Shown: positions 8,292 through 29,375, numbered from the stretch's first letter. The stretch is DNA of 37,394 bases from Candidatus Nanohalalkaliarchaeum halalkaliphilum (GCA_022729315.1 JALDAF010000004.1:1-37394); one strand, 5' to 3'. The notes: generated by a model from the letters alone, not told the origin. Program-made: numbers and translations.

Positions 8292-9242
8292 CTATACCTC
8301 GCTATGGCCGGTAAGCATACGGTGGATTGCCGTCATATCTTCTATGCGCTGGATATCCATAAATCGGGGATGATCCGTGTCCACCCCATCCTCGAACCGG
8401 TCGTGCTCCCAGTCATGGTAGTGGAAGTAGACCCGTCCAACTCCAGCCTCCTGCGCCGGCGCCATATCACTATTCAACGAGTTCCCAACCATCACGACCC
8501 GGTCCTCGCCATATTTCTCGGCAAGCTCCTCCAGCTTCTCCATCTTGTCATACTGTACCACGTACATGTTATCCTCGGGGATGAACCGGTACAGCTGCAG
8601 TCCTTCGACCTTCGGCCACTGCACCTTCTCAACACCTGCCGTTAGCAGATGGAGTTCGGCATCGTCCCGATCCGCAAGGTACGCAAGTGTCTGGTCCGCG
8701 CCCTGCACCGGCCCCTCCTCAGCAGTGACGATAAACCCTTCCATAGCGTACGTCTCCGGCGCCTTATCCACAACGTCCCACCCCAGCTTGAACGATTCAA
8801 CCGCGCCACGGTCAACCCGCTCCTCATCGAATACGGCATCCTGCTCCTCGTAAATCTCGTAAAACCGGTCCTGCAGATCATCCGGCACGTGCTTCTGTGC
8901 GAACGCCTCCAGCTCATCGTCCTCCAGATGGTCCGCGTACACCCGTTCTGCATGTGCCGCGATATCTCGGTAGGCGATTGCGAGCGACCCGCCGACCCGG
9001 TCCTTGCTGTAGTGGTGGCGTTTCTGCCGTTCCGTATCTATCGCATCGTAGACGGTGAGGAGGCCGTCCGCATCCCAGAACGGGACCATCGTCTCCTGCG
9101 TGTACCGCACCCAGTCATCCTTGGCCGCGATATAGTGTTCTGCCGTGGATATCAGCGTATCATCCAGATCGAACACGTACTGCACCGGTTCGTCCGCGGA
9201 GAACGAGTTCTCCAGCATCGGGTTGTCATCGTGAATGTTCAT
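8292..9242 (-). CDS. HAD superfamily hydrolase
   Basis: FDLDDTLI motif I, LLTAG motif II, Lys region and VMVGNSLNSDMAPAQEAG motif IV. Confidence 0.85.
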   Translation of the reverse strand: MNIHDDNPMLENSFSADEPVQYVFDLDDTLISTAEHYIAAKDDWVRYTQETMVPFWDADGLLTVYDAIDTERQKRHHYSKDRVGGSLAIAYRDIAAHAERVYADHLEDDELEAFAQKHVPDDLQDRFYEIYEEQDAVFDEERVDRGAVESFKLGWDVVDKAPETYAMEGFIVTAEEGPVQGADQTLAYLADRDDAELHLLTAGVEKVQWPKVEGLQLYRFIPEDNMYVVQYDKMEKLEELAEKYGEDRVVMVGNSLNSDMAPAQEAGVGRVYFHYHDWEHDRFEDGVDTDHPRFMDIQRIEDMTAIHRMLTGHSEV

Positions 9243-9268
9243 CTCCCTCCCCCTTCATAAATCCTGTG

Positions 9269-9697
9269 TCAGACGTGTTCCTGTAAGAACCGGGTAACCC
9301 GTTCACTCAGCAGCTCGTAACGCTTCACCGTTGGGTCGTAGGACAGGACGTATTCCCGCGTCGTTTCAAACTCCTCACGTTTCTCTGTGCCGCGCACCCG
9401 TTCCGCTTCATCCGGGAACTGCTGCTCCGTGAAGTCCACGACCACACCGTCGATATCGTTGAAGTAGTGGGACTCGGTCTCACCGTCCGGAAGCTCGTAG
9501 TCCACGTTCACGATTTCGCCGCCGAGATAGTCCTGTACCACGCAGGCGGATGCGGCACACTGCCCGTACGCCGGGTTGTCCTCCGTCCACTCCCCTGAAT
9601 CGTACACGCTCGTGTCCGCATCCCATCCATGCTCCAGCGCGTTCCGTAGAATATCGATATCGCTCTGTTCCGATAAAGAATAATGCTCCTCGCCCAC
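9269..9697 (-). CDS. YunG-like protein
   Basis: NPAYGQCAASACVVQDYLGGEIVN ... HYFNDIDGVVVDFTEQQF resembles YunG family; likely GTG start at 9697 (TATA-like TATTTAATG upstream) rather than the ORF ATG at 9829. Confidence 0.65.
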   Translation of the reverse strand: MGEEHYSLSEQSDIDILRNALEHGWDADTSVYDSGEWTEDNPAYGQCAASACVVQDYLGGEIVNVDYELPDGETESHYFNDIDGVVVDFTEQQFPDEAERVRGTEKREEFETTREYVLSYDPTVKRYELLSERVTRFLQEHV

Positions 9698-9868
9698 CGA
9701 TTTCCCCCATACCCATGACGTACTCCAAACATTAAATACATGGGCAAAACTGTCCACATATAAACATACGTTTATTTTTATGGTCTGTTTAAAATATTCG
9801 TTTGTTTCTCCGCGAGGATGGTGCGGCACGGAAGACTATTTAATATTCCTGCAGTAACGTAACGTGGT

Positions 9869-11908
9869 ATGGCGACCCTTCTCGTTGCTGAGAAGCCAAA
9901 AGTGGCGAAGCGTATCGCGGATTCTATCGGGGATTATGAGGTGGAGAGCAACCGCGGTGTCAAAAATTACATTGTGGATACGCAGTACGGCGAGGTGATC
10001 GTGGCTCCGTCCGTCGGACACATCTTCACGCTTGAACAGCAGGACGGTGAGTGGACCTATCCCGTGTTCGACATCGAATGGGTGCCGTCCCATACGACGG
10101 ATGACGGCCAGGACTACATGAAGAAATACTACCAGAACCTGCAGGACCAGTGCGAGAAGGCGGACGCCTACATCAACGGGTGCGACTTCGATATCGAAGG
10201 ATCTGTCATCGGCTACTCCTGCATCAACTTCGGCTGTAACGGCTCAGAGGACCGGATACAGCGCATGCACTTCTCCACGTTGACCACCAGCGACCTGCAG
10301 GAGGCGTTTGATGACCTGCAGCCGTTCGACCGCGGACAGACCGAGGCCGGGCTGACGCGGCACATCCTGGACTGGTACTATGGTATCAACATTTCCCGGG
10401 CGCTGATGCTGGCGGTGCGCTCCCAGAACCGTTACAAAACACTGTCGACGGGACGTGTGCAGGGACCGGCCTTGAAGATCGTGGCGGAGAAGGAGCGGGA
10501 GATCCAGGCGTTCGAGCCCGACCCGTACTGGGAGATCGTGATCACCGGTGGCGGTCTCGAAGCCATGCACGAGGAGGAACGGTTCTGGGAGGAGGAGAAG
10601 GCGACCGCCGTGTTCGAGACGTGCAAGGGTCATAACGCAACGGTCCTTGCATTGAACCGGAACCGGTACAAGCACAACCCGCCCATCCCGTTCAACCTGA
10701 CCGGGCTGCAGAGCGAGGCCAGCAGCCAGTTCAACATCAACCCGAAGAAGACACAGCAGATCGCGCAGAGCCTGTATGAGGACTCGTTGATCTCATATCC
10801 GCGAACGGAAAGCCAGAAGCTCCCAGCAAAGATCGGGTACAGCACCATCCTGAACAAGCTGAAGAACCAGGACAAATACAAAGAACAGGTGGACACCGTG
10901 TTGAAGAAGGACGAGTCCGGTGACATGTATCCACGACAGGGCAAGAAGAAGGATGATGCCCACCCGGCAATCTACCCGACCGGGATGGCACCGAGTAACC
11001 TGAACGATAAGGAGCAGAAGGTGTATGACCTGATTGTGAAGCGGTTCTTCGCCGTGTTCGGTGAGGCCGCGATCCGGGAGACACTGAAGATCACGCTGGA
11101 CGTGAACGGAGAGAAGTTCGCGGCGAAAGGGAAGCGGACCGTGGAACGGAACTGGTTCGACCTGTACGAACCCTATGTGAACGTGAAGACCATCGACCTG
11201 CCTGACGTGGAGGAAGGACAGGAGATCCCGGTTGACGAGATCGAGATGCTGGACAAGGAGACACAGCCACCGCGCAGGTACACACAGAGCTCACTGGTCA
11301 ACGAGCTGGAGAAGAAGAACCTGGGCACGAAGGCGACCCGGGCCAACATCGTGGACTCATTGTATAATCGGAAGTATATCACCGGGCAGAGCATCGAGGT
11401 CACCGATCTCGGTATGGCCGTGGTTGAGGCACTGGAGGATCACTGCCCAGAGATCCTGTCAGAGGAACTGACGCGGGCGTTCGAGAAGCAGATGGAGCAG
11501 ATCAAGGAGGAGAACTCGAGCCGGGACGAGGTGCTGGACGCGGCGAAAGACAAGCTGCAGGAGATCCTGGAGCAGTTCCAGAAGGACGAGGAGAAGATCG
11601 GCGAACAGCTTATCGGTGCCGTCGACGAGACCAGGAAAAAGGAGCGGCAGCTCGGCCCCTGCGACCAGTGCGACGGGACGCTCCGGATCGTGAAGACGAA
11701 GAAAGGATCCCGGTTCGTGGGATGCAACAGCTACCCGGACTGTGAGAACACCTACCCGCTACCCGGTAACGGCAAGATCGAGTCCACGGACAAGACCTGC
11801 GACGAATGCAAGACACCGTTCATCAAGGTCATCCGGAAAGGCCGGAAACCGTGGCGATTATGTTTGGACCCGGACTGCCCGACCAAGGACGACTGGGGCG
11901 ACGACTGA
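9869..11908 (+). CDS. topA: DNA topoisomerase I (type IA, archaeal)
   Basis: Toprim LLVAEKPKVAKRI, GCDFDIEGSVIG, catalytic SYPRTESQKLP, two C-terminal Cys4 zinc-ribbon-like motifs. Confidence 0.96.
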   Translation: MATLLVAEKPKVAKRIADSIGDYEVESNRGVKNYIVDTQYGEVIVAPSVGHIFTLEQQDGEWTYPVFDIEWVPSHTTDDGQDYMKKYYQNLQDQCEKADAYINGCDFDIEGSVIGYSCINFGCNGSEDRIQRMHFSTLTTSDLQEAFDDLQPFDRGQTEAGLTRHILDWYYGINISRALMLAVRSQNRYKTLSTGRVQGPALKIVAEKEREIQAFEPDPYWEIVITGGGLEAMHEEERFWEEEKATAVFETCKGHNATVLALNRNRYKHNPPIPFNLTGLQSEASSQFNINPKKTQQIAQSLYEDSLISYPRTESQKLPAKIGYSTILNKLKNQDKYKEQVDTVLKKDESGDMYPRQGKKKDDAHPAIYPTGMAPSNLNDKEQKVYDLIVKRFFAVFGEAAIRETLKITLDVNGEKFAAKGKRTVERNWFDLYEPYVNVKTIDLPDVEEGQEIPVDEIEMLDKETQPPRRYTQSSLVNELEKKNLGTKATRANIVDSLYNRKYITGQSIEVTDLGMAVVEALEDHCPEILSEELTRAFEKQMEQIKEENSSRDEVLDAAKDKLQEILEQFQKDEEKIGEQLIGAVDETRKKERQLGPCDQCDGTLRIVKTKKGSRFVGCNSYPDCENTYPLPGNGKIESTDKTCDECKTPFIKVIRKGRKPWRLCLDPDCPTKDDWGDD

Positions 11909-11957
11909 CGCCTGTAAGAATGTTGAATAAAGTTCTTCTTTGATGAATATACGATAA

Positions 11958-11979
11958 TTTTATCTCGTTAAAGATAAAA
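11958..11979. promoter_or_regulatory. perfect 8-bp inverted repeat TTTTATCT-N6-AGATAAAA upstream of AAA+ ATPase gene
   Basis: 11958-11965 and 11972-11979 are exact reverse complements; right arm overlaps a TATA-like ATAAAAATAT. Confidence 0.5.
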
Positions 11980-12022
11980 ATATCCGTTTCCAAATGGGAT
12001 GTAACAACGGTAGGGGAACACT

Positions 12023-13594
12023 GTGGGATCGGACAATAGTCATAGGGAACGGTTTGAGTACCGGCGGAAGAAGTTTGAAGGAGAGCTATCCGAATTTTCG
12101 TCGTTTCTTGAAGAGGTATACGGGGATGAGCTGGAACACGTTGAAGGCGATCTCACTGAGGCACTAAAGACGAAACATGACATTGATATCACCTACGAAC
12201 TGGAAGATGCACAGATCAAGCTCACCAGTGACGGCAGTAAACGGGATGACTGGGTTAACTTTGCTGTTGTCTCACAGGACCCGGATTACGCCCGGCGTAT
12301 CAAGAACAGGATCATGAATAAGGCGGAGGGCGAGTTTGACCGTGTCGTGGAGGGTAACATCACGTACGAAGGCAAGGTATCGGTCGAGCCGGAAAAGGAG
12401 AACTATGACAGCGTGGAGCCGTTCATCGACATCATGGACGTACTCTGTGACTGGTACAGTTCGGACGAGGGATACGAGTTGACGGTACGTCCGCTGGACG
12501 ACGAGATCGATACCAGTGCCGTAAAACGGAAAGAAGGGCGATACCATGGTAAAAAATACCCGAGCGAGGTCTCCGTAGATATCGAGAACGATGAGAAAGA
12601 GAAGACGCTTCATATCACCACGCAGAAATCTGACGGTGACGCTGCCATCCAGTGCCGGTTCGACGCAGAGGAAGACGACTGGATGCACGAACTCCGGCGT
12701 GTCGTGCACGGCCACTACCTGGCATCAACAGGCTTCGAACCGGAAACCGTGCAAAGCCAGTGGGACGAGTTTATCGTGGAATCACCGGATGTTTCGATGG
12801 ATGAGGTTGGCGGGTTAGATAATGTGAAACAGCGCATTACAGAGGACATCATTCACCCACTGAAATATCCAGAAGAATCCCGGCGGATGGGCGTCGCACC
12901 GACAACCGGTGCACTGTTCTACGGGCCGCCCGGCACGGGGAAAACATTGATGGCGCACGCTATCGCTGCGGAAGCGGATGCAGACCTGTACGAAATCGAT
13001 ATGAGCGAGATCGTCAGTAAATACGTGGGCGAAACAGAGAAACATATCAATGCGCTCTTCGACCACGTGGAAGAGAATGGGCCGGCTATCGTGTTCTTCG
13101 ACGAGGCAGATACTGCGATACCTGACCGAGAGCAGTCAGACAAGGACTACAACCGCCGGCAGACCAACGAAATCCTGCGACGTCTGCAATCCGACGATGT
13201 CATCACCATCGCAGCGACGAACCAGAAAGGCCACATCGATGACGCAGGGAAGCGATCCGGGCGGATAGATGATTCCTACACGTTCGCACCGCCGGACCAG
13301 GAGGGCCGGGAGGATATCCTCAAGATACACGTTGAGAAGAACGCCCGAACCGCGACAAAAGATGATCTATTCGCCGATATCGATTACACTGAGCTTGCCG
13401 CCGAGGCTGAGGGCGCGACCGGAGCCGACATCGAGACCTGGGTCAAGAAAGCTGTCAGGAACGCCGCATACGGTGAGGGAGCAGACCTGGATACGCCACC
13501 GGAGGTTACCAAGGTCACCGAGGACGACTTCTATGAAGCACTTGAACTGATGGAGTTCTCCACCGATACGGGAGACGATCCGATGATCCACTGA
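12023..13594 (+). CDS. AAA+ ATPase (Cdc48/PAN-like module) with unassigned ~250-aa N-terminal region
   Basis: GPPGTGKT Walker A, IVFFDEAD Walker B, pore loop KYVGE, VGGLDNVKQRI linker; GTG start with upstream GGGGA. Confidence 0.9.
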   Translation: MGSDNSHRERFEYRRKKFEGELSEFSSFLEEVYGDELEHVEGDLTEALKTKHDIDITYELEDAQIKLTSDGSKRDDWVNFAVVSQDPDYARRIKNRIMNKAEGEFDRVVEGNITYEGKVSVEPEKENYDSVEPFIDIMDVLCDWYSSDEGYELTVRPLDDEIDTSAVKRKEGRYHGKKYPSEVSVDIENDEKEKTLHITTQKSDGDAAIQCRFDAEEDDWMHELRRVVHGHYLASTGFEPETVQSQWDEFIVESPDVSMDEVGGLDNVKQRITEDIIHPLKYPEESRRMGVAPTTGALFYGPPGTGKTLMAHAIAAEADADLYEIDMSEIVSKYVGETEKHINALFDHVEENGPAIVFFDEADTAIPDREQSDKDYNRRQTNEILRRLQSDDVITIAATNQKGHIDDAGKRSGRIDDSYTFAPPDQEGREDILKIHVEKNARTATKDDLFADIDYTELAAEAEGATGADIETWVKKAVRNAAYGEGADLDTPPEVTKVTEDDFYEALELMEFSTDTGDDPMIH

Positions 13595-16224: not shown

Positions 16225-17169
16225 CTACTGCTCGGACATGATACCCTGGAAAACCAGGATAGTGTAGTACTGGAGGTAGGTCTCGGCCGGGACACGGACA
16301 GCGTACAGCGTGATGACTAACCAGAACAGGGCAGCTACCCCGCCAAACACGCCGACAAGCACGGTTATGCCGCCAACAGCGTAATATATGGCGATAACCG
16401 GGATGATGAACACCAGCAGAACCAGAAGACTGGCGATACCGACAACGATCCCGATCCCCAGACCAAGCAGGAACCGGACCACGATATACGCCGCGGTTTC
16501 ACGCCACTCCCGCCGCACCACCGGATACAGCGTTTTCCAGGCCTGGAAGATGTTCATACGGCGATCGATCATCATCAATGGCACGAACTCCCGTGTCAGC
16601 TGCAGCGCAACAACGACCAGCAACAGGAGCGGCAGCACCAGCAGTACGACCGGGAGTATGACAACCGGGTGCAACACCGCCACACCTATTCTGCCCGCCG
16701 CGACACCGATCACCAGCGTGAGCAGACCCACCAGTGCCAGTACGGCCATCCCCGCCAGTAACTGTATGCCGTTCCAGAAGTGGCGTGACACATTAGCCCT
16801 GATACGGACCCGTCTGTCCAGAAGCGACTGATAGAACACGAACCGGAACACGGCGCCAAGGATGACAAACACTGCACCGAGCAGTACGGCAAGGATAACC
16901 GCTACAGCCTCAACCGTAGGGACCGTTACCATGCCCGTCGGGGACACACCACCTTCCGGATGCGGCTGATCCAGCGCATGCTCCCCGCCCGTTGTTCCTC
17001 CCGTCAGTGCGGATACCCCCTCTCCACTCGGTGCATTGAAGCCGCTGACAAAGAATACGATGACAGCAACCTTCGCCCACAGCCACCAGTCAAACGGCAG
17101 CAGCAACTCCTTCGTCTCCGTCACCGCTGCATCGATCGCCTCAACCGCGTGCCAGCCCATACCCGCCAT
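16225..17169 (-). CDS. multi-pass membrane protein similar to haloarchaeal-type uncharacterised membrane proteins
   Basis: AIDAAVTETKELLLPFDWWLWAKVAVIVFFVSG opening and repeated hydrophobic segments. Confidence 0.8.
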   Translation of the reverse strand: MAGMGWHAVEAIDAAVTETKELLLPFDWWLWAKVAVIVFFVSGFNAPSGEGVSALTGGTTGGEHALDQPHPEGGVSPTGMVTVPTVEAVAVILAVLLGAVFVILGAVFRFVFYQSLLDRRVRIRANVSRHFWNGIQLLAGMAVLALVGLLTLVIGVAAGRIGVAVLHPVVILPVVLLVLPLLLLVVVALQLTREFVPLMMIDRRMNIFQAWKTLYPVVRREWRETAAYIVVRFLLGLGIGIVVGIASLLVLLVFIIPVIAIYYAVGGITVLVGVFGGVAALFWLVITLYAVRVPAETYLQYYTILVFQGIMSEQ

Positions 17170-17227
17170 TGCGCTGGTCCGACTTAAATAGGATTAGGAT
17201 GCCAGAAAACAGTATCTCCGCTCCAGA

Positions 17228-17710
17228 TCAGCGGTCAGCTGCAGCTACGACAAAGACGTATCGCCGATCCTTCGTGCCTGACCAGAAACTGCTGTCAGTT
17301 CCCCATCGTCTGACCCTGCCTCGCAGAGAGACCGGCTCCTCGTAGACACCACCGACCAGCTGCTCCTCGGATAGAACGTCACGGATACCGTTATCGTCAT
17401 CATCGATCGTGATAAGTGATGGCGCCGTGTCGTCGGGATCCGGATCATCGTAGAGTTCAAACGTGTGTCGGGTGGCGGAGCAGCAACCGGTATACCACTC
17501 TCTTGTCCCAACGTACCGCGGATGGCCCTCCGTCTGCACGTCATCATACTGGAACTCATCGATATTAACCATCAACTCAGGCAGCGCTACTTCCACGTAT
17601 TCCTCCTCAGATTTTTCCTCTTCGCTCATACATCCAGCAAGAATCCCTGTTACGCCCACCGCTGATGCTCCCAGTACTTCACGCCGTGAAACCCTGTACT
17701 CGTCCTCCAT
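17228..17710 (-). CDS. Tat-exported lipoprotein, unknown function
   Basis: MEDEYRVSRREVLGASAVGVTGILAGC: twin-arginine SRREVL plus LAGC lipobox; start at internal ATG 17710. Confidence 0.75.
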   Translation of the reverse strand: MEDEYRVSRREVLGASAVGVTGILAGCMSEEEKSEEEYVEVALPELMVNIDEFQYDDVQTEGHPRYVGTREWYTGCCSATRHTFELYDDPDPDDTAPSLITIDDDDNGIRDVLSEEQLVGGVYEEPVSLRGRVRRWGTDSSFWSGTKDRRYVFVVAAADR

Positions 17711-17771
17711 GATCGTGCATGGTGCTGAATGCTTAAATTTGTAGGCCACCCACGCCCCGTTTTATCCACGT

Positions 17772-17814
17772 ACACAAAAACGTATTTAAAGTTTTGTGTG
17801 CACATACACAAAAC
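17772..17814. promoter_or_regulatory. operator-like triple half-site around the promoter of the 17815/Cdc48 genes
   Basis: ACACAAAA (17772-17779), TATTTAAA (17783-17790), GTTTTGTGT-N6-ACACAAAAC perfect 9-bp inverted repeat (17791-17814) ending at the base before the ATG. Confidence 0.65.
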
Positions 17815-18132
17815 ATGGTGGACGGGGAAAAGGCCGCGTTGATCTCGTACGATGCACGGAGCGACCGGTTCGACAGCATGTACGAGCGGAACAAGTTTTA
17901 CCGCGGCCTGTTCGGCTACAAGCAGACCGTCCGACGGAACGACAAAGTGTACCATTACGAAAAGGACGGCCTGTTAGATGAGGTTCCACATATAAAAGTA
18001 GAGGATTCGGTGTTCATCATTCACCGAGAGGACCTTAATAAGTTTCAAACATACTTTAAACAGTGGTCCGGGAGGGTCGATGTCCAGGTATTCCATATCA
18101 CCCTGGACGACGCCCGGATCAACGACACATAA
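17815..18132 (+). CDS. conserved archaeal-type hypothetical protein, probably co-transcribed with cdc48
   Basis: ATG at 17815: MVDGEKAALISYDARSDRFDSMYERNKFYRGLFGYKQTV...; 20 nt upstream of cdc48. Confidence 0.75.
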   Translation: MVDGEKAALISYDARSDRFDSMYERNKFYRGLFGYKQTVRRNDKVYHYEKDGLLDEVPHIKVEDSVFIIHREDLNKFQTYFKQWSGRVDVQVFHITLDDARINDT

Positions 18133-18152
18133 CTGCTGGAACGTGAACAACA

Positions 18153-20456
18153 ATGGCTGACAACGCTGGAGACACGGGAAACGGGAACGACCGCGTCAAA
18201 CTCAAGGTTGGGGAGATCCCACCGAACGCACAGGAAGATATCGGTAGCGGAGTCGTCCGCATCGACTCAAGCGTCATGGAAAAACTGGGTATCCGCGAAG
18301 GCGACGCGGTCGTCATCGAAGGAGACCGGAAAACCGTTGCCCGTGTGGCACGGTCCTACCCGGCAGACGCCGGTCTCGGCATCATCCGCATGGACGGATA
18401 CATCAGGAAGAACGCGGGCACCTCTCTCCGGGAGACCGTGAACGTGCACAAGGCCGAACTCCAGGAAGCGAAGAAAGTGGTGCTGGCACCTGCAGAGGAA
18501 GGTGTCACCATCCAGGTATCGTCTCCCAGCATATTCAAACGGACACTTACCGGACGCGCCATCACCAGCGGCGACCTTATCGTCCCATCCTCCGGCAAGG
18601 AGCGACGACGCAGCCTGTTCGAGGACATGTTCGACCTTGACGACTTCTTCGACTTCACGTTCGGCGAGACAAAGCTGATGGTGGTGTCCACGACCCCCGC
18701 CAGCGAACCGGTCGCAATAACAGAGAACACACAGATAGAGGTCCGGCCACAGGCCGTGGAAGAAAGCGACGAGATCGGTCCGCGCGTGCCGGAAGTAACC
18801 TATGAGGATATCGGCGGACTGGAAAGCGAGATTCAGAAGGTGCGGGAGATGATCGAACTCCCGCTGAAACACCCGGAGGTGTTCCAGCAGCTCGGTATCG
18901 ACGCGCCGAGCGGCGTGCTTCTACACGGCCCGCCAGGAACCGGTAAAACACTGCTGGCCAAGGCCGTCGCCAACGAGGCGGACGCCTGGTTCACCAGTAT
19001 CAACGGCCCGGAGATCATGAGCAAGTTCTACGGCGAATCCGAGAAAAAGCTCCGGGAGATCTTCGACGAGGCACGGGAGAACTCTCCGGCCATCATATTC
19101 ATCGACGAACTGGACGCGATCGCACCGAAACGGGAAGAGGCGCACGGCGAGGTGGAGCGCCGTGTCGTCGCACAGATGCTGTCACTCATGGACGGTCTCG
19201 AGGAACGTGAAGACGTGATCGTGATCGCCGCAACCAACCGGCCGGACGATATCGACGAGGCGCTGCGGCGGCCGGGACGACTGGACCGGGAAATCGAGAT
19301 CGGTGTCCCGGACCGGAACGGCCGGAAGGAGATTTTGCAGATCCACACCCGGAACATGCCGCTTGAACGGGAAGACGCGGGAGAAGTGGATCTGGACGAG
19401 ATCGCGGACCGGACCCACGGCTACGTCGGCGCTGATATCGAGGCGCTGGCCAAGGAAGCGGCCATGATCACACTGCGGCGAGTCCTTCCAGAGATCGATC
19501 TGGATGACCGTCAGTTAGACGAGGACATACTCGATAAACTGGTCGTATCCAAGGACGATTTCACCGAGGCCATGAAGGTCGTCGAACCCAGCGCCATGCG
19601 GGAAGTACTGGTTGAGGTCCCGCAGGTCACCTGGGACGATGTCGGTGGCCTGACCGAGGTACAGGAACGACTGCAGGAGATGGTGGAATGGCCGCTCAAA
19701 CAGCCGGAAGTGTTTGAACGGATGGGGATCGACGTACCGAAAGGCATCATGCTCTATGGTATGCCTGGCACCGGTAAAACACTGTTGGCCAAGGCCGTGG
19801 CCAACGAATCCGAGGCAAACTTCATCTCTATCAAAGGCCCACAGGTCTTCTCCAAGTGGGTCGGCGAATCAGAGAAGGCGATCCGGAAGATCTTCTCCAA
19901 GGCCCGGGAAGTCGCTCCAGCGATCATTTTCATCGACGAGATCGATTCGATCGCCCACCGGCGCGGCATGGACTCTTCCGGTGTCGGCGACCGTGTCGTG
20001 AACCAGATCCTGTCCGAACTGGATGGTATCGAGGACATGGAGGACGTGATCGTGATCGCCGCAACCAACCGGCCCGACATGATCGATCCGGCACTGATGC
20101 GGCCGGGACGACTGGACCGGCACCTGCATATCCCGGTCCCGGAGGAAGCGGCGCGGCGCAAGATCTTCGAGATCCATACCCGGGACATGCCGCTGGCCGA
20201 TGATGTGGACCTGGACCGGCTTGCCCGTGAAACGGAAAACTACGTCGGCTCCGACATCGAAAGCGTCTGCCGCGAAGCCGGGATGAGCGCACTCCGGGAG
20301 GACCAGGACTCTGACACCGTTACTATGGCACACTTCGAGGACGCACTCGAATCCGTTTCGCCATCCGCACGCGAGGACGACCTGGAAAACTTCCAGAAGC
20401 GTATCGAACGCATGGAACAGGAAGAAGCCGCGGAGACCGCAGACTACTTCGCCTGA
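18153..20456 (+). CDS. CDC48/VAT family AAA+ ATPase
   Basis: Double-psi barrel-like N domain, two AAA modules ([22 protein letters not shown] and [22 protein letters not shown]), RPGRLDR arginine-finger regions. Confidence 0.96.
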
Positions 20457-23680: not shown

Positions 23681-25143
23681 TTAACCTTGCTCAACTTCCT
23701 GTGTAAACTGCTCCAACCAGTCCATCAAGCCTGTTGATGGCGGGTTCAGTGACCGTTGTGTTCGATCATGGTCCGGGTAAGCGTAAACCTGTGGACTGCT
23801 TTCGTCCCCATATCCATGTCCCGGAGCATTCATGTACAGGCTGTCACCGGCTTGCCTGTGCTGCTCTGAATTACGAAACTGTTCTATGATACGCTGATCG
23901 TCTTCATCCCGGTCTGCCGGCCGTGCCCCCACCACCGGTAGCAACGCCTCCTTTACCTCTGAAGACGGCATTACCTCCAACCCTTCTGGCCATATCGGGG
24001 GCTCATCAACGATCGTCACATCCGGACCTTCATCGTCCAGATCCCGCTGCATGTGCAGATTATCCTCAAGGTATACGATGGATGCAGACCGCGTCCACTC
24101 TGACTGATGGGTCACCCAGTCAGGCCCATCCTCATACACATTCCCGACGAAGGAGATCCGGGGCGGTTCATCTATATCACAGATGTCGGAAGTACCCATT
24201 CCTGCATGCAGTGGCCGTCCATAGTTAAACACATAGTTGTTCGCCCACACCAATTCCGACTCGCCACGCACACGCGGATTCCGCCGTCTGTGGTGTGCAA
24301 TCGCATTCCCAAGGTATACTGCGTTTTCGATGCATCGCTGGTTGTGTGCCCCTCTGCAGTGCGTATCATCTGCGTGGTCAGCGTGGCAGAGCCCCTCATA
24401 AATAAGATTGTTTGTCACAGTTATATCCTGAGCTGCCGACCGGATCTGGAACGTCTGGTTCGTTCCCCAGCTGAACGTACAGTGATCGATGACAACGTTA
24501 CGCGTATGGTTCCCGATCGCCATCGGATCACCCTGCTGCGGAGTTTCTGTCTCGTTTCCCGGCCGGACCCGGATGTGTTGGATAATAGCATTCTCTAACT
24601 CGGTCAGCCGGATACCCTGACCACGGGTAAGCGTGATTCCTGGTGACGGCGCAGTCTGTCCCGCAACGTAAAGATTACCCTGTCCTGACCGGGGACGGAT
24701 ATAATCGCCGACCTCCAAATCGATCACGCCACCCACCTCGAAACGATCAACCGTGGGAAATCCAGGTCCTCCATCGCCCAACGAAGCGATCCCTCCCCGC
24801 TCGCATCAAGATTGGTGACCTTCACAACTTCCAAATCCTGCTCCTGTACCCACGCTGTCGATGCAAACCCATCATCCGGACCAAACTGAGAAATCCCGCC
24901 ACCAATCAAGCCACCTCCACCTCGGGGTGCACACATATCTGACGATGAACGTGAGGCCCATCCCGTCAGCGCTCCAGAAGGCAACGAAAACGAACTATAC
25001 CACCCCGTATACACCGCACCACCCAACACACCCGCGCCCAGAACCTTCAAGAACCGGCGACGTGACATATGACGGGGAACCTCCTGCACCGACTTGGAAA
25101 CATCTTCTTCTGACGCATCCTCTTTCTTACCGGATTCCTCCAT
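23681..25143 (-). pseudogene. Tat-exported pectate-lyase-like beta-helix protein interrupted by an apparent -1 nt frameshift
   Basis: N-part ORF 24724..25143 (Tat signal MSRRRFLKVLGAGVLGG, VVKVTNLDASGEGSLRWAMEDLDFPRLIV) continues in another frame in ORF 23681..24781 (FEVGGVIDLEVGDYIRPRSGQGNLYVAGQTAPSPGITL). Confidence 0.8.
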
Positions 25144-25303: not shown

Positions 25304-27274
25304 CTACAGGTTTTCGACATTATACTCGTTGGTTTCCGGACTGCTGAATTCGAAGTCGAACCCGGTGTTGACCAGCGTGTTGTGGGTGAGATGCATTCTA
25401 TCTCCGTCGGTAGACCGGTGCCTGAATTCGGCATCGTCGATAAAGATATTGTTTTTCACGATGACATCTGCGTCGACGGTCTGCGTGTCATCCTCGTACC
25501 ACACGCGCCACGAGTCTTTCACGACGCAGTCCTTGATGATGAAGTGTCCGTGTAACGCTTCGCAGTCCTCGTCGTTCACACGGATAAAGTCCTCCCCGTT
25601 ACAGTCGACATGGATGTTGGACCAGGTGAAATCTTTCAAATGGTATACGCCGCCGTCCGTTGCGGATGAAATGCTGAACAGGGACGACGATCCGATCGTT
25701 CCCATGTTCCAGTTGTCGAATGTTACGTTTTCGATGAGCGGATCGTGTCCCTCTCCGGTTCCGGCAGGCCATATCCTGAGTCCGACACCGTCCAACCCGT
25801 CAGCGACAACGTTTCGGATGGTTAACCCGGAAAAATCGTACCGGACAAATCCGATGGTCCGTGTGGATTCAAGTGTCAGGCCATCCACTGTAACGTTCTG
25901 GGCCCGCACCCGGATCGCCCGGTTAGAGTTCGAGACCGTGCAGTCCCTGAAGTTTATGTCGTACGCATTGGGATGGGTGTTCAGCCCTTGACCACTCTGT
26001 TTTATCGAGCTGCCGACAACCGAGCAGTTCTTCAGCGGTGTCCACGGTTGGCCGCCGGATCCGCTGTCCGGCCCCGATGAACCGAACTTGTGGGCGTACC
26101 GGCCGACATTCTCCACGATACAGTTGGATACAAGAACGTGGTCGCCGAGTCCGATACAGTTCGTCCCGTAGTGGCCGGAGTGTTCGATGCGAAGATTGTG
26201 GTAGTGGTGGTTAAACGGTTCATGTGCCTGTGTGGCGCTGTCGGGCACCTTCCTTATATAGCAGTTCCGTATAGTCGTGTTCCGTGTCCGTGAGACAACG
26301 ATGCCGTCCTCACTCCACGGCCCCGTGTCCCCAACATCCTCAATCCGCATCGCTCCGACAACCTCGAATCCGTCGATGACAAGGTTCTCTGCGGGGAAGT
26401 TCACCTTCCACACCTCTCCACCGCTCGCTGAATAGTCAAATGTTACCCCGCTCTGTCCGTCCTTGATAATGAGACTGTTCGCACTCTCATCGACATCCGA
26501 AATGACAAGCATCTCGGCAGTCGTCCCTCCTTCTCTGCTGTGATTGACCCATTGCTGATCCCGGTCATGCAGAACGATCACGTCACCTGGTTCATATCCG
26601 CTCGCATCGTCCACGTCAATGGTGCCGTCATATCGTGACACCGACGACGACAGATCCGTCCGGTTCGTGTAGACATCTTCATTCCAGTCCGGATGGCTTC
26701 GTGGCTGATCGATGATATTATTCGAATCCGTGGAACCCTCCGGAAGTTCCGACCTGATCACGGCCCTGTTCGGCGACCAGAGGGTCAGGTTATCGGTTGG
26801 CGGTAGTGTGAACTCTCCCCATTCCCCGTTATTCGGCCCCTGCCCACGGAAGAAGATAACAAGATCACCGTCTCCCGCCGCATCAACAGCGTCCTGCGCC
26901 GTACTGTAATCATGTGCAAAGATGACATCAGCCTCAGACCATTTGCTCCCTCCGCCCCCGTTTCCGTTCGCCGTATTGTCAACGTACTCCTTGTTCGCAA
27001 TATCATTGGAATCTGTGGGGGTAGACGTGACCGTTCCTGTAGAAGCGTGTATAGCCCCGACATCCCCGATATCATTCCCCTGCAGATCCAGCGTCCCGTC
27101 CGTCCCGATTTCGAACTGTGTGTCTCCTGCGAGGTCCCGGTACCGGAACGCATTATCACTCCGGATGTCGAACGCGGCCGCGTTCTTTCCGACCATCGCA
27201 GCACCGAGTCCAGCCGCACCGAGCATCCCAGCCTTTTTCAAAAACTGGCGGCGATCGATACTGTGTTCCTTCAC
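25304..27274 (-). CDS. Tat-exported right-handed beta-helix protein (annotated core; probably extends to 27394)
   Basis: SIDRRQFLKKAGMLGAAGLGAAMVGKNAAAF Tat signal; parallel beta-helix-like repeats (NLVIDGFEV, NTTIRNCYI, VLVSNCIVENV, NVTVDGLTL). Confidence 0.85.
   Translation of the reverse strand: MKEHSIDRRQFLKKAGMLGAAGLGAAMVGKNAAAFDIRSDNAFRYRDLAGDTQFEIGTDGTLDLQGNDIGDVGAIHASTGTVTSTPTDSNDIANKEYVDNTANGNGGGGSKWSEADVIFAHDYSTAQDAVDAAGDGDLVIFFRGQGPNNGEWGEFTLPPTDNLTLWSPNRAVIRSELPEGSTDSNNIIDQPRSHPDWNEDVYTNRTDLSSSVSRYDGTIDVDDASGYEPGDVIVLHDRDQQWVNHSREGGTTAEMLVISDVDESANSLIIKDGQSGVTFDYSASGGEVWKVNFPAENLVIDGFEVVGAMRIEDVGDTGPWSEDGIVVSRTRNTTIRNCYIRKVPDSATQAHEPFNHHYHNLRIEHSGHYGTNCIGLGDHVLVSNCIVENVGRYAHKFGSSGPDSGSGGQPWTPLKNCSVVGSSIKQSGQGLNTHPNAYDINFRDCTVSNSNRAIRVRAQNVTVDGLTLESTRTIGFVRYDFSGLTIRNVVADGLDGVGLRIWPAGTGEGHDPLIENVTFDNWNMGTIGSSSLFSISSATDGGVYHLKDFTWSNIHVDCNGEDFIRVNDEDCEALHGHFIIKDCVVKDSWRVWYEDDTQTVDADVIVKNNIFIDDAEFRHRSTDGDRMHLTHNTLVNTGFDFEFSSPETNEYNVENL
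27120..27253. repeat. 134-bp perfect direct repeat, copy 1 (Tat signal and FDIRSDNAFRYRDLAGDT stem)
   Basis: Identical base-for-base to 29050-29183; flanks diverge immediately on both sides. Confidence 0.97.
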
Positions 27275-27394
27275 TACGTTCTGACGGGTATCTGCGTGCG
27301 CCGGTTCTCCTGTTAACTGCTGTAACAGTTCCTGTTGTTCCTGTACCTGGCGTTGAAGCTCTGCAACCGTTTTCTCCAGTTCGTCCCGTTTCAG
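27275..27394 (-). other. in-frame 40-codon coiled-coil N-terminal extension of the 25304..27274 CDS (putative CTG start)
   Basis: (L)KRDELEKTVAELQRQVQEQQELLQQLTGEPAHADTRQNV, in frame, preceded by GAGGTGA SD (27401-27407) 6 nt from CTG; same heptad register as the paralogue. Confidence 0.6.
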
Positions 27395-27440
27395 TATTGT
27401 TCACCTCTGCTGTCAGATATACGGCGCCTGTACATTTTCT

Positions 27441-29375
27441 TTAGCTGATGTCTATATTATCACGGATGACAGTATCTGTGTCGCCGTTACCGCGGATGCC
27501 ATCATTACCGTTTGGCAGGAAGTTGTCGACGATGAACCCAGAACTGGCGCCGTCCGTATTCCGGATGGCATCGTCGTCCCGGCCGACCAGTGTTGCCTCC
27601 TGTATTCGGAAATGATCGGCGCCTCCCCTGAGACGGACTGCGGTCTCTGGACCCTCTACATGGCCGCCTCTGAGGGTAAAGTATTCGCCGTCTGGTCGGA
27701 CGGCGTCGCTGTGACCGGATCCTCCCTCCGAGTAAATATTGCAGTCAATGACCTTGCAGTGGTCCGTTCCCAGCCTGACAAGGCCGTCAGAGTCGTACGC
27801 GTCCCCGGTCTGCTTGATGTCACAGCTTTCCAGCACCATCCAGACCTCGTCTGCGTCGTAGGGGTTGTCTGCGGTCCTGGAGTGCCGTATGATGCCGGAG
27901 TGGTCTGGAGGATCGTCAAGTTCAACAACCGTGTCCTCGACGCGTGCCGTCCCAGTTTCGCCACGGGACCGGATTATACGGCTGACCGTGTCCACATCGC
28001 TGGACACCTCAATGTAACAGTTCCGGGCGACATGACCGGTTCCGCCCTGGAAGTACAGGATGTCTGGAGAGAACAGGTGGTCGTCTTTCTCGTCCGTGAT
28101 ACCCATTCGGACCGAGTCGACCAGTGTGTTATCTGTACCGGATCGAACCTGTGAATTATTGTTGTTGTAGTACCGGCCGCCCTGGACGATAAGCCGTCCC
28201 GTTTCCTCGCCGAGATTCCGGCTGGACCGGAGGCCGTTGTCTTGCCAGTACTGGAGCTGGCAGTCTACGACGCGTACTGTGGCGTCTGGCTCAATCACCG
28301 ATATCAGGATACCGGCTGACCACTCGTCACTACTGGTAGACATGACCTGTCCCTCGTTCGCGATGAACCGTTCGATCCGTACCTGCGCCCGGTCGTATGC
28401 CCGGACACGAAGCGGACCCGAATCACCGTTATTGATCCGGTCGAGAACCCGGATATCCTGGACCACGGCCCGACCGTTGCCGTTCACCGCGAGAGTCAGA
28501 ACCCGGTCCCCTGTCGACCCGTCCCCGGTCACATCAATGTTCCGCATGACGAACGTGTCCATGTGCTCTCCGTCAGATGGATCACCGGCACGGACCATCG
28601 TCGTATCAGCGCCGAACCGGAACTCCGTCCCCGCGACTCCGACCAGTGCAACGTTATCATACCCACTCAGGTCTGCAGACCCGTCAAAACGGTACTCTCC
28701 AGATGGGAACACCATCAGTGTTTCATCGTCTATCACGTCCTCGATATCACTGGATACGTCAGAGTTCCCCGTATTATCGATCCCGCGTTCGACGGCATCA
28801 ATCACGTTCCAGCCTTCAAACGAAATCCTGTTTACGCGTACACCAGTATACCCATCGGGCTCAATCGTGTCGCTGTCGACCTCCCGCCACGCCGAATCTC
28901 CAGTACTACTGGTCTCCACGTCAGCGTTCAATGCTCCATCTTCAATGAAGAGGTTGTCGCCCGTGATTTCAGTAAGTTCCGTATTACCGGTAAGCCCGCC
29001 ATTGAGACCGTTGAGTGTGACGGTTCCGTCCTGATCCACTTCAAGCAGCGTGTCTCCTGCGAGGTCCCGGTACCGGAACGCATTATCACTCCGGATGTCG
29101 AACGCGGCCGCGTTCTTTCCGACCATCGCAGCACCGAGTCCAGCCGCACCGAGCATCCCAGCCTTTTTCAAAAACTGGCGGCGGTTTACTGTACCGGCGT
29201 CATGGGGCAGGTTCGAGGGAGAAGGAGTTTGCCGTTCCTCTTTCAACCGTTGAATCTCACCGGCCTGTGCGTCAAGCTTATCTTTTAGCCGTTCAACCTT
29301 TTTCTCTAATTTGTCCTGTCCTGTCAGCTCCAGCTCATCTCTCCGCTGTCTCCTTTCCTCATTATCTCCTCTCAT
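27441..29375 (-). CDS. Tat-exported right-handed beta-helix protein with coiled-coil cytoplasmic N-region
   Basis: MRGDNEERRQRRDELELTGQDKLEKKVERLKDKLDAQAGEIQRLKEERQ, then RRQFLKKAGMLGAAGLGAAM Tat signal, then beta-helix-like repeats. Confidence 0.88.
   Translation of the reverse strand: MRGDNEERRQRRDELELTGQDKLEKKVERLKDKLDAQAGEIQRLKEERQTPSPSNLPHDAGTVNRRQFLKKAGMLGAAGLGAAMVGKNAAAFDIRSDNAFRYRDLAGDTLLEVDQDGTVTLNGLNGGLTGNTELTEITGDNLFIEDGALNADVETSSTGDSAWREVDSDTIEPDGYTGVRVNRISFEGWNVIDAVERGIDNTGNSDVSSDIEDVIDDETLMVFPSGEYRFDGSADLSGYDNVALVGVAGTEFRFGADTTMVRAGDPSDGEHMDTFVMRNIDVTGDGSTGDRVLTLAVNGNGRAVVQDIRVLDRINNGDSGPLRVRAYDRAQVRIERFIANEGQVMSTSSDEWSAGILISVIEPDATVRVVDCQLQYWQDNGLRSSRNLGEETGRLIVQGGRYYNNNNSQVRSGTDNTLVDSVRMGITDEKDDHLFSPDILYFQGGTGHVARNCYIEVSSDVDTVSRIIRSRGETGTARVEDTVVELDDPPDHSGIIRHSRTADNPYDADEVWMVLESCDIKQTGDAYDSDGLVRLGTDHCKVIDCNIYSEGGSGHSDAVRPDGEYFTLRGGHVEGPETAVRLRGGADHFRIQEATLVGRDDDAIRNTDGASSGFIVDNFLPNGNDGIRGNGDTDTVIRDNIDIS
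29050..29183. repeat. 134-bp perfect direct repeat, copy 2
   Basis: Identical to 27120-27253. Confidence 0.97.

Follow-up and report, generated by a model that had tools for sequence, protein, structure and literature searches.

The window, that is, the whole stretch of DNA analysed (37,394 nucleotides, GC 57%), is one complete contig of the MAG NHA21 (JALDAF000000000). This genome represents 'Ca. Nanohalalkaliarchaeum halalkaliphilum', a member of the Nanohaloarchaeota from soda-saline lakes, and has a GC content of 56.09% (PMC9765267). Three genes in a row on the minus strand carry twin-arginine (Tat) type signals, and their neighbours in the window have metabolic or housekeeping functions (thiolase, hydroxyacyl-CoA dehydrogenase, citrate synthase, malate and isocitrate dehydrogenases, malic enzyme, topoisomerase and Cdc48). 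Imperfect direct repeats spaced by 831 bp (72-76% identical) on the plus strand at 18841-20143 are the two AAA modules of the Cdc48-type ATPase, an ordinary arrangement. The features of the Tat-type genes are as follows.

29184..29375, minus strand: P1 leader, 64 codons, predicted long helix or coiled coil ahead of the Tat motif (AF2, heptad pattern)
29050..29183, minus strand: tract copy in P1, comprising the Tat signal (29103-29183) and the first 18 stem codons (exact identity, TIGR01409)
27441..29375, minus strand: gene P1, 644 aa, with leader, Tat signal, stem and a passenger related to that of the paralog on contig C29
27254..27397, minus strand: P2 leader, homologous to the leader of the C49 paralog and diverged from the P1 leader (blastp, heptad pattern)
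27120..27253, minus strand: tract copy in P2, comprising the Tat signal (27173-27253) and the start of the stem (exact identity, TIGR01409)
25304..27397, minus strand: gene P2, with leader, Tat signal, stem and a predicted right-handed beta-helix; start at a non-canonical ATA/CTG or at the internal GTG 27274
23681..25143, minus strand: third Tat-type gene (RRRFLK); the ORFs 24724-25143 and 23681-24781 overlap, with an apparent frameshift near 24.75 kb

The leaders of P1 and P2 are ~48-64 residues long and show heptad-like hydrophobic residues at the a and d positions. AlphaFold models built without an alignment reached pLDDT values of 38 and 40 (40 for P1) and are interpretable only for the P1 leader, in which residues 3-48 are drawn as a single helix (pLDDT ~70-80). 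The P2 leader matches that of the C49 paralog at 38% over 39 aa (blastp, E=2e-6). Both proteins then carry the motif RRQFLKK (RRxFLK), a hydrophobic stretch and an AxA-type end, and TIGR01409 scores above its cut-off in both. The signal leads into a short stem (AFDIRSDNAFRYRDLAGD..FEI.TDGTL), to which a long passenger is joined. The third Tat-type gene appears pectate-lyase-like by eye and has no Pfam match.

The passengers of P1 and P2 are unrelated to each other. That of P2 is predicted to be a right-handed beta-helix, based on a match to PF13229 (2.5e-6, 27.7 bits versus a cut-off of 25.9); it also matches the tail-spike profile phrog_14558 (2e-9), has no relative elsewhere in the genome, and a sequence search of P2 against the PDB gave no match. 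The P1 passenger is related to that of the C29 paralog (25% over 500 aa). An initial reading of the locus from its sequence alone (hereafter the sequence-only reading) described two beta-helix passengers, which is borne out for P2, whereas for P1 the match is sub-threshold (PF12708, E=0.0018, below cut-off).

Two of the paralogous leaders are irregular. At the position homologous to the starts of its relatives, P2 has no ATG, GTG or TTG (window 27272-27397); an ATA at 27397, preceded by GAGGTGA, opens the reading frame, and no start codon follows until GTG 27274, immediately before the RR pair. The C63 copy carries an in-frame TAG about ten codons into its leader (L015:10102-10140). Judged from sequence, both oddities are compatible with silent stores, and also with alternative starts or sequence errors.

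The segments 27120-27253 and 29050-29183 are identical base for base, and the match cannot be extended by a single base on either side. This confirms an exact repeat of 134 bp, placed in the same frame of two tandem genes, where it encodes RRQFLKKAGMLGAAGLGAAMVGKNAAAFDIRSDNAFRYRDLAGDT (45 residues). In the 169 kb of this genome examined, no exact repeat is longer, and no further identical copy was found in the whole genome (1,130,266 bases, 78 contigs). Given the same protein and independent codon choice, the probability that all codons agree is ~10^-18. The equivalent segment of the other paralogs is only ~65% identical to the tract in ungapped DNA comparison, with many silent differences, so that constraint at the DNA level fails to explain the identity. 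The recency claimed for the exchange is only loosely bounded, as 0 differences in 134 positions allow a divergence of up to ~2.2% (upper 95% limit, rule of three).

The sequence-only reading had described an abrupt divergence of both flanks of the tract, and this holds at the DNA level; at the protein level, codon comparison shows that the leaders upstream and the FEI.TDGTL stem downstream are still homologous, although strongly diverged. Because both flanks retain this homology, the segment looks like a conversion tract. Five other paralogs in the genome (C63, C72, C49, C29 and, in part, C9) have the same head, which includes the Tat signal and stem, at 44-73% protein identity and with many silent differences. 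In a permutation run test on six paralogs, the P1/P2 run comprised 97 concordant polymorphic sites (global p<=0.001), and 41 sites when third positions alone were used (p<=0.001); nothing comparable was seen elsewhere among the six. The segments of P1 and P2 also have different nearest relatives (C49 for the P2 leader, C72/C63 for the P1 leader and C29 for the P1 passenger), and the two genes are therefore mosaics.

We consider it probable that the tract arose by ectopic gene conversion between tandem paralogs whose heads had already diverged, within a modular family of surface proteins. The proposal of gene conversion or recombination is thus strongly supported by the exact tract, the ~65% identity of the paralogs, the diverged but homologous flanks and the run test. 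P1 and P2 would be tandem members of a family of the Nanohaloarchaeota in which a leader, predicted to form a cytosolic coiled coil, is followed by a twin-arginine signal, a short stem rich in beta structure and an exchangeable passenger resembling tail fibres or tail spikes. Long after P1 and P2 diverged, homologous recombination would have taken place within the conserved Tat and stem part, through events whose direction and number we infer. In its simplest form this would be non-reciprocal gene conversion within the tandem pair, with at least 134 bp of one copy replaced by the sequence of the other. The common head presumably does the same job in all members, delivering to the Tat translocase a protein that has already folded in the cytoplasm. 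The leader would oligomerise the protein, and its length, as read from the sequence, could also signify an uncleaved anchor. Outside the cell, each passenger would have its own target to bind or break down, in an adhesive or polysaccharide-degrading role.

Gene conversion is known to be efficient in Haloferax (PMC11276520). A close likeness is found in mtrA-1 and mtrA-2 of methanogens, operon-mates in which one domain is homogenised by gene conversion while the other, fused domain is different (PMC4632066). Both cases involve archaeal tandem paralogs with one homogenised part and a differing fused part. They differ in that the mtrA pair encodes a core enzyme with long-lasting, phylogenetically documented homogenisation, whereas here we observe a single exact 134-bp tract in the signal and stem module of surface proteins. 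The tract itself is an ordinary, clean example of conversion.

The best-surviving alternative is partial duplication, in which a single copying event placed one gene's head before or within another passenger gene, giving a chimera with no conversion between pre-existing heads. Heads and passengers do have discordant relatives, passengers are strikingly diverse across the head family, and on C29 long fibre-like genes carry the same stem after Sec signals, all of which suit such shuffling. However, the P1 and P2 leaders and distal stems, on both sides of the tract, are homologous but old, so that the tract apparently became identical only when each gene already possessed a leader and stem of its own. 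We therefore regard a simple partial duplication as unlikely. The conversion reading has its own limit in that P1/P2 is a single clear case, and one-off segmental copying of a head leaves a nearly identical trace.

An assembly artefact, with strain variants or separate loci joined at a common stretch, deserves consideration since the MAG was assembled with MEGAHIT from short reads (150-bp Illumina, 78 contigs), and the related heads in one other genome, G025, often lie near contig ends. The largest default k of MEGAHIT is 141, longer than the repeat. The 134-bp tract is also shorter than one read, so single reads can span it, and with two flanks and one internal segment the order X-R-Y-R-Z is the sole path that uses all segments once. 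Misjoining is therefore very unlikely, although the assembly could have collapsed several copies of the internal unit into one. Collapse of a repeat was also considered at C9, where the contig begins inside a head, and was not borne out, since no other contig matches the initial 200 bases of C9.

Finally, the tract could be the recombination site of a programmed or selected switch, by which the P1 leader acquires the P2 passenger in a form of phase or antigenic variation and P2 is a poorly translated or silent store. The geometry is in frame for such an exchange, and the claim that recombination between the copies would delete 1930 bp and fuse the first leader in frame to the second passenger is arithmetically correct; it describes geometry and is not evidence. 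The irregular start of P2 and the in-frame TAG in the C63 leader would fit, but GTG 27274 could be the normal start of P2. The multiple near-identical copies or silent stores of phase and antigenic variation were not found in the genome, where nothing beyond the P1/P2 pair exceeds 74% DNA identity, and the paralogs differ from one another instead of being maintained as identical copies. No integrase, transposase, invertase or other recombinase was found among the window genes scanned (Pfam), and a deletion fusion is one-way and irreversible. The simple switch envisaged in the sequence-only reading thus finds no support, and a programmed or selected switch is very improbable.

Gene conversion in the P1/P2 pair remains our preferred reading, and we looked for its recurrence in two other genomes, G025 and G006. 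In G025, contig C16 carries two heads, separated by 4 kb, whose stems have 50 bp in common without a mismatch, while their Tat parts differ. The run test for this tract gave p=0.08 genome-wide and p=0.73 on third positions, which is not significant after correction. Sequence comparison therefore suggests recurrence, at most.

Beyond the identical pair, the search for further copies of the cassette returned diverged heads with other passengers, both in this genome and in other genera. A head profile (A1) was compared with 28 genomes of the phylum and matched 8 at a loose threshold and 6 at E<=1e-6. Clear RR-bearing heads are present in 5 of the 28 genomes, weaker ones in two more, with up to seven copies per genome. 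A scan of GTDB contigs with the same profile gave a single match, to one Bacteroidetes Tat signal. TatC was detected in 8 of the 28 genomes and TatA in 7 of those 8; this genome encodes both (TatC at C23:25535-26149, TatA at C23:26353-26493). All genomes with a clear head have TatC, except G025, which is 77% complete. In five genomes, tatC has a head gene or a related gene with a Tat signal no more than ~5 kb away, and in G018 such a gene lies directly upstream of tatA.

The passengers of the family include beta-helices, WD40-type propellers and proteins matching tail-spike and tail-fibre profiles (PHROG tail-spike matches of 1e-11 for the C63 paralog and 1e-10 for the C49 paralog). Three long fibre-like proteins with Sec-type signals are encoded on the minus strand at L019:6078-8936, 8954-12820 and 16378-19098, the first two with the stem motif of the Tat heads. 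Tandem repeats of 76-77 bp resembling a tRNA 3' end occur at the end of C29 (L085:8045-8224) and at the start of C63 (L015:1-76); these two contigs may adjoin each other in the genome, and an integration site is possible there.

Downstream of several short heads, at a spacing of -14 to +11 bp, lies a gene in which no N-terminal hydrophobic stretch is apparent by eye. These signal-less genes encode LamG, glycine-rich, beta-helix or virion-structural-like domains. The pairs of short head and signal-less gene are located as follows.

L023:3467-7054
L065:4749-6862
L069:6865-8003
L074:4595-6291
L077:3571-5222
L078:565-2248
L018:3-3370

From their gene order, such pairs are possibly a split form of the same architecture, co-exported as Tat 'hitchhikers'. 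The arrangement resembles known hitchhiker export, e.g., that of PaoABC, where a subunit with a Tat signal and a signal-less partner are encoded by adjoining genes (PMC4273604); unlike in PaoABC, hitchhiking is deduced here from gene order only.

The beta-helix passengers match profiles of phage tail spikes and fibres (PHROG 14558 and 7458), and the family shares with phage receptor-binding proteins a conserved N-terminal part and swapped C-terminal parts. Unlike phage tail spikes, P1 and P2 are cellular proteins that lie behind Tat signals and among metabolic genes. A phage virion context was not found for them: their neighbours are metabolic and no phage record matched at the protein level. 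A viral origin was considered and rejected, with no match in IMG/VR or in phage or plasmid collections.

Candidates for host interaction have been described within the same phylum, namely the SPEARE proteins and a LamG/TAA-like operon of 'Ca. Nanohalococcus occultus' (PMC10266531). The operon lies near tatC by locus number and shares LamG and pyocin-knob-like parts with the head family (PMC10266531), whereas the SPEARE proteins differ in being giant and membrane-anchored. We found no description of the Tat head family in the available part of that report, in which the Tat system of 'Ca. Nanohalococcus occultus' SVXNc is called a lone TatC that is likely inactive (PMC10266531). In G017, tatC (G017:C1:685901-686518; L069 corresponds to G017:C1:680000-692000) has as direct neighbours a gene for a TatA homologue and two genes with Tat signals. 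If G017 is the SVXNc genome, these genes question the published view of a lone, likely inactive TatC (PMC10266531).

The modular Tat and tail-fibre-like family is of more interest than the tract. It is conceivable, if rather unlikely, that a near-dedicated nanohaloarchaeal Tat system surfaces modular tail-fibre-like adhesins or enzymes that are folded in the cytoplasm and oligomerised by their leaders, some of them split into a Tat head and a hitchhiking signal-less passenger, and that recombination between heads re-pairs heads and passengers, by which these symbionts would change what they bind. The family consists of Tat-type, phage-fibre-like putative surface proteins, is coupled to the presence of tatA and tatC, and recombines in one clear case. 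It provides a concrete list of candidates for the attachment of nanohaloarchaea to their haloarchaeal hosts, or for the exploitation of these hosts.
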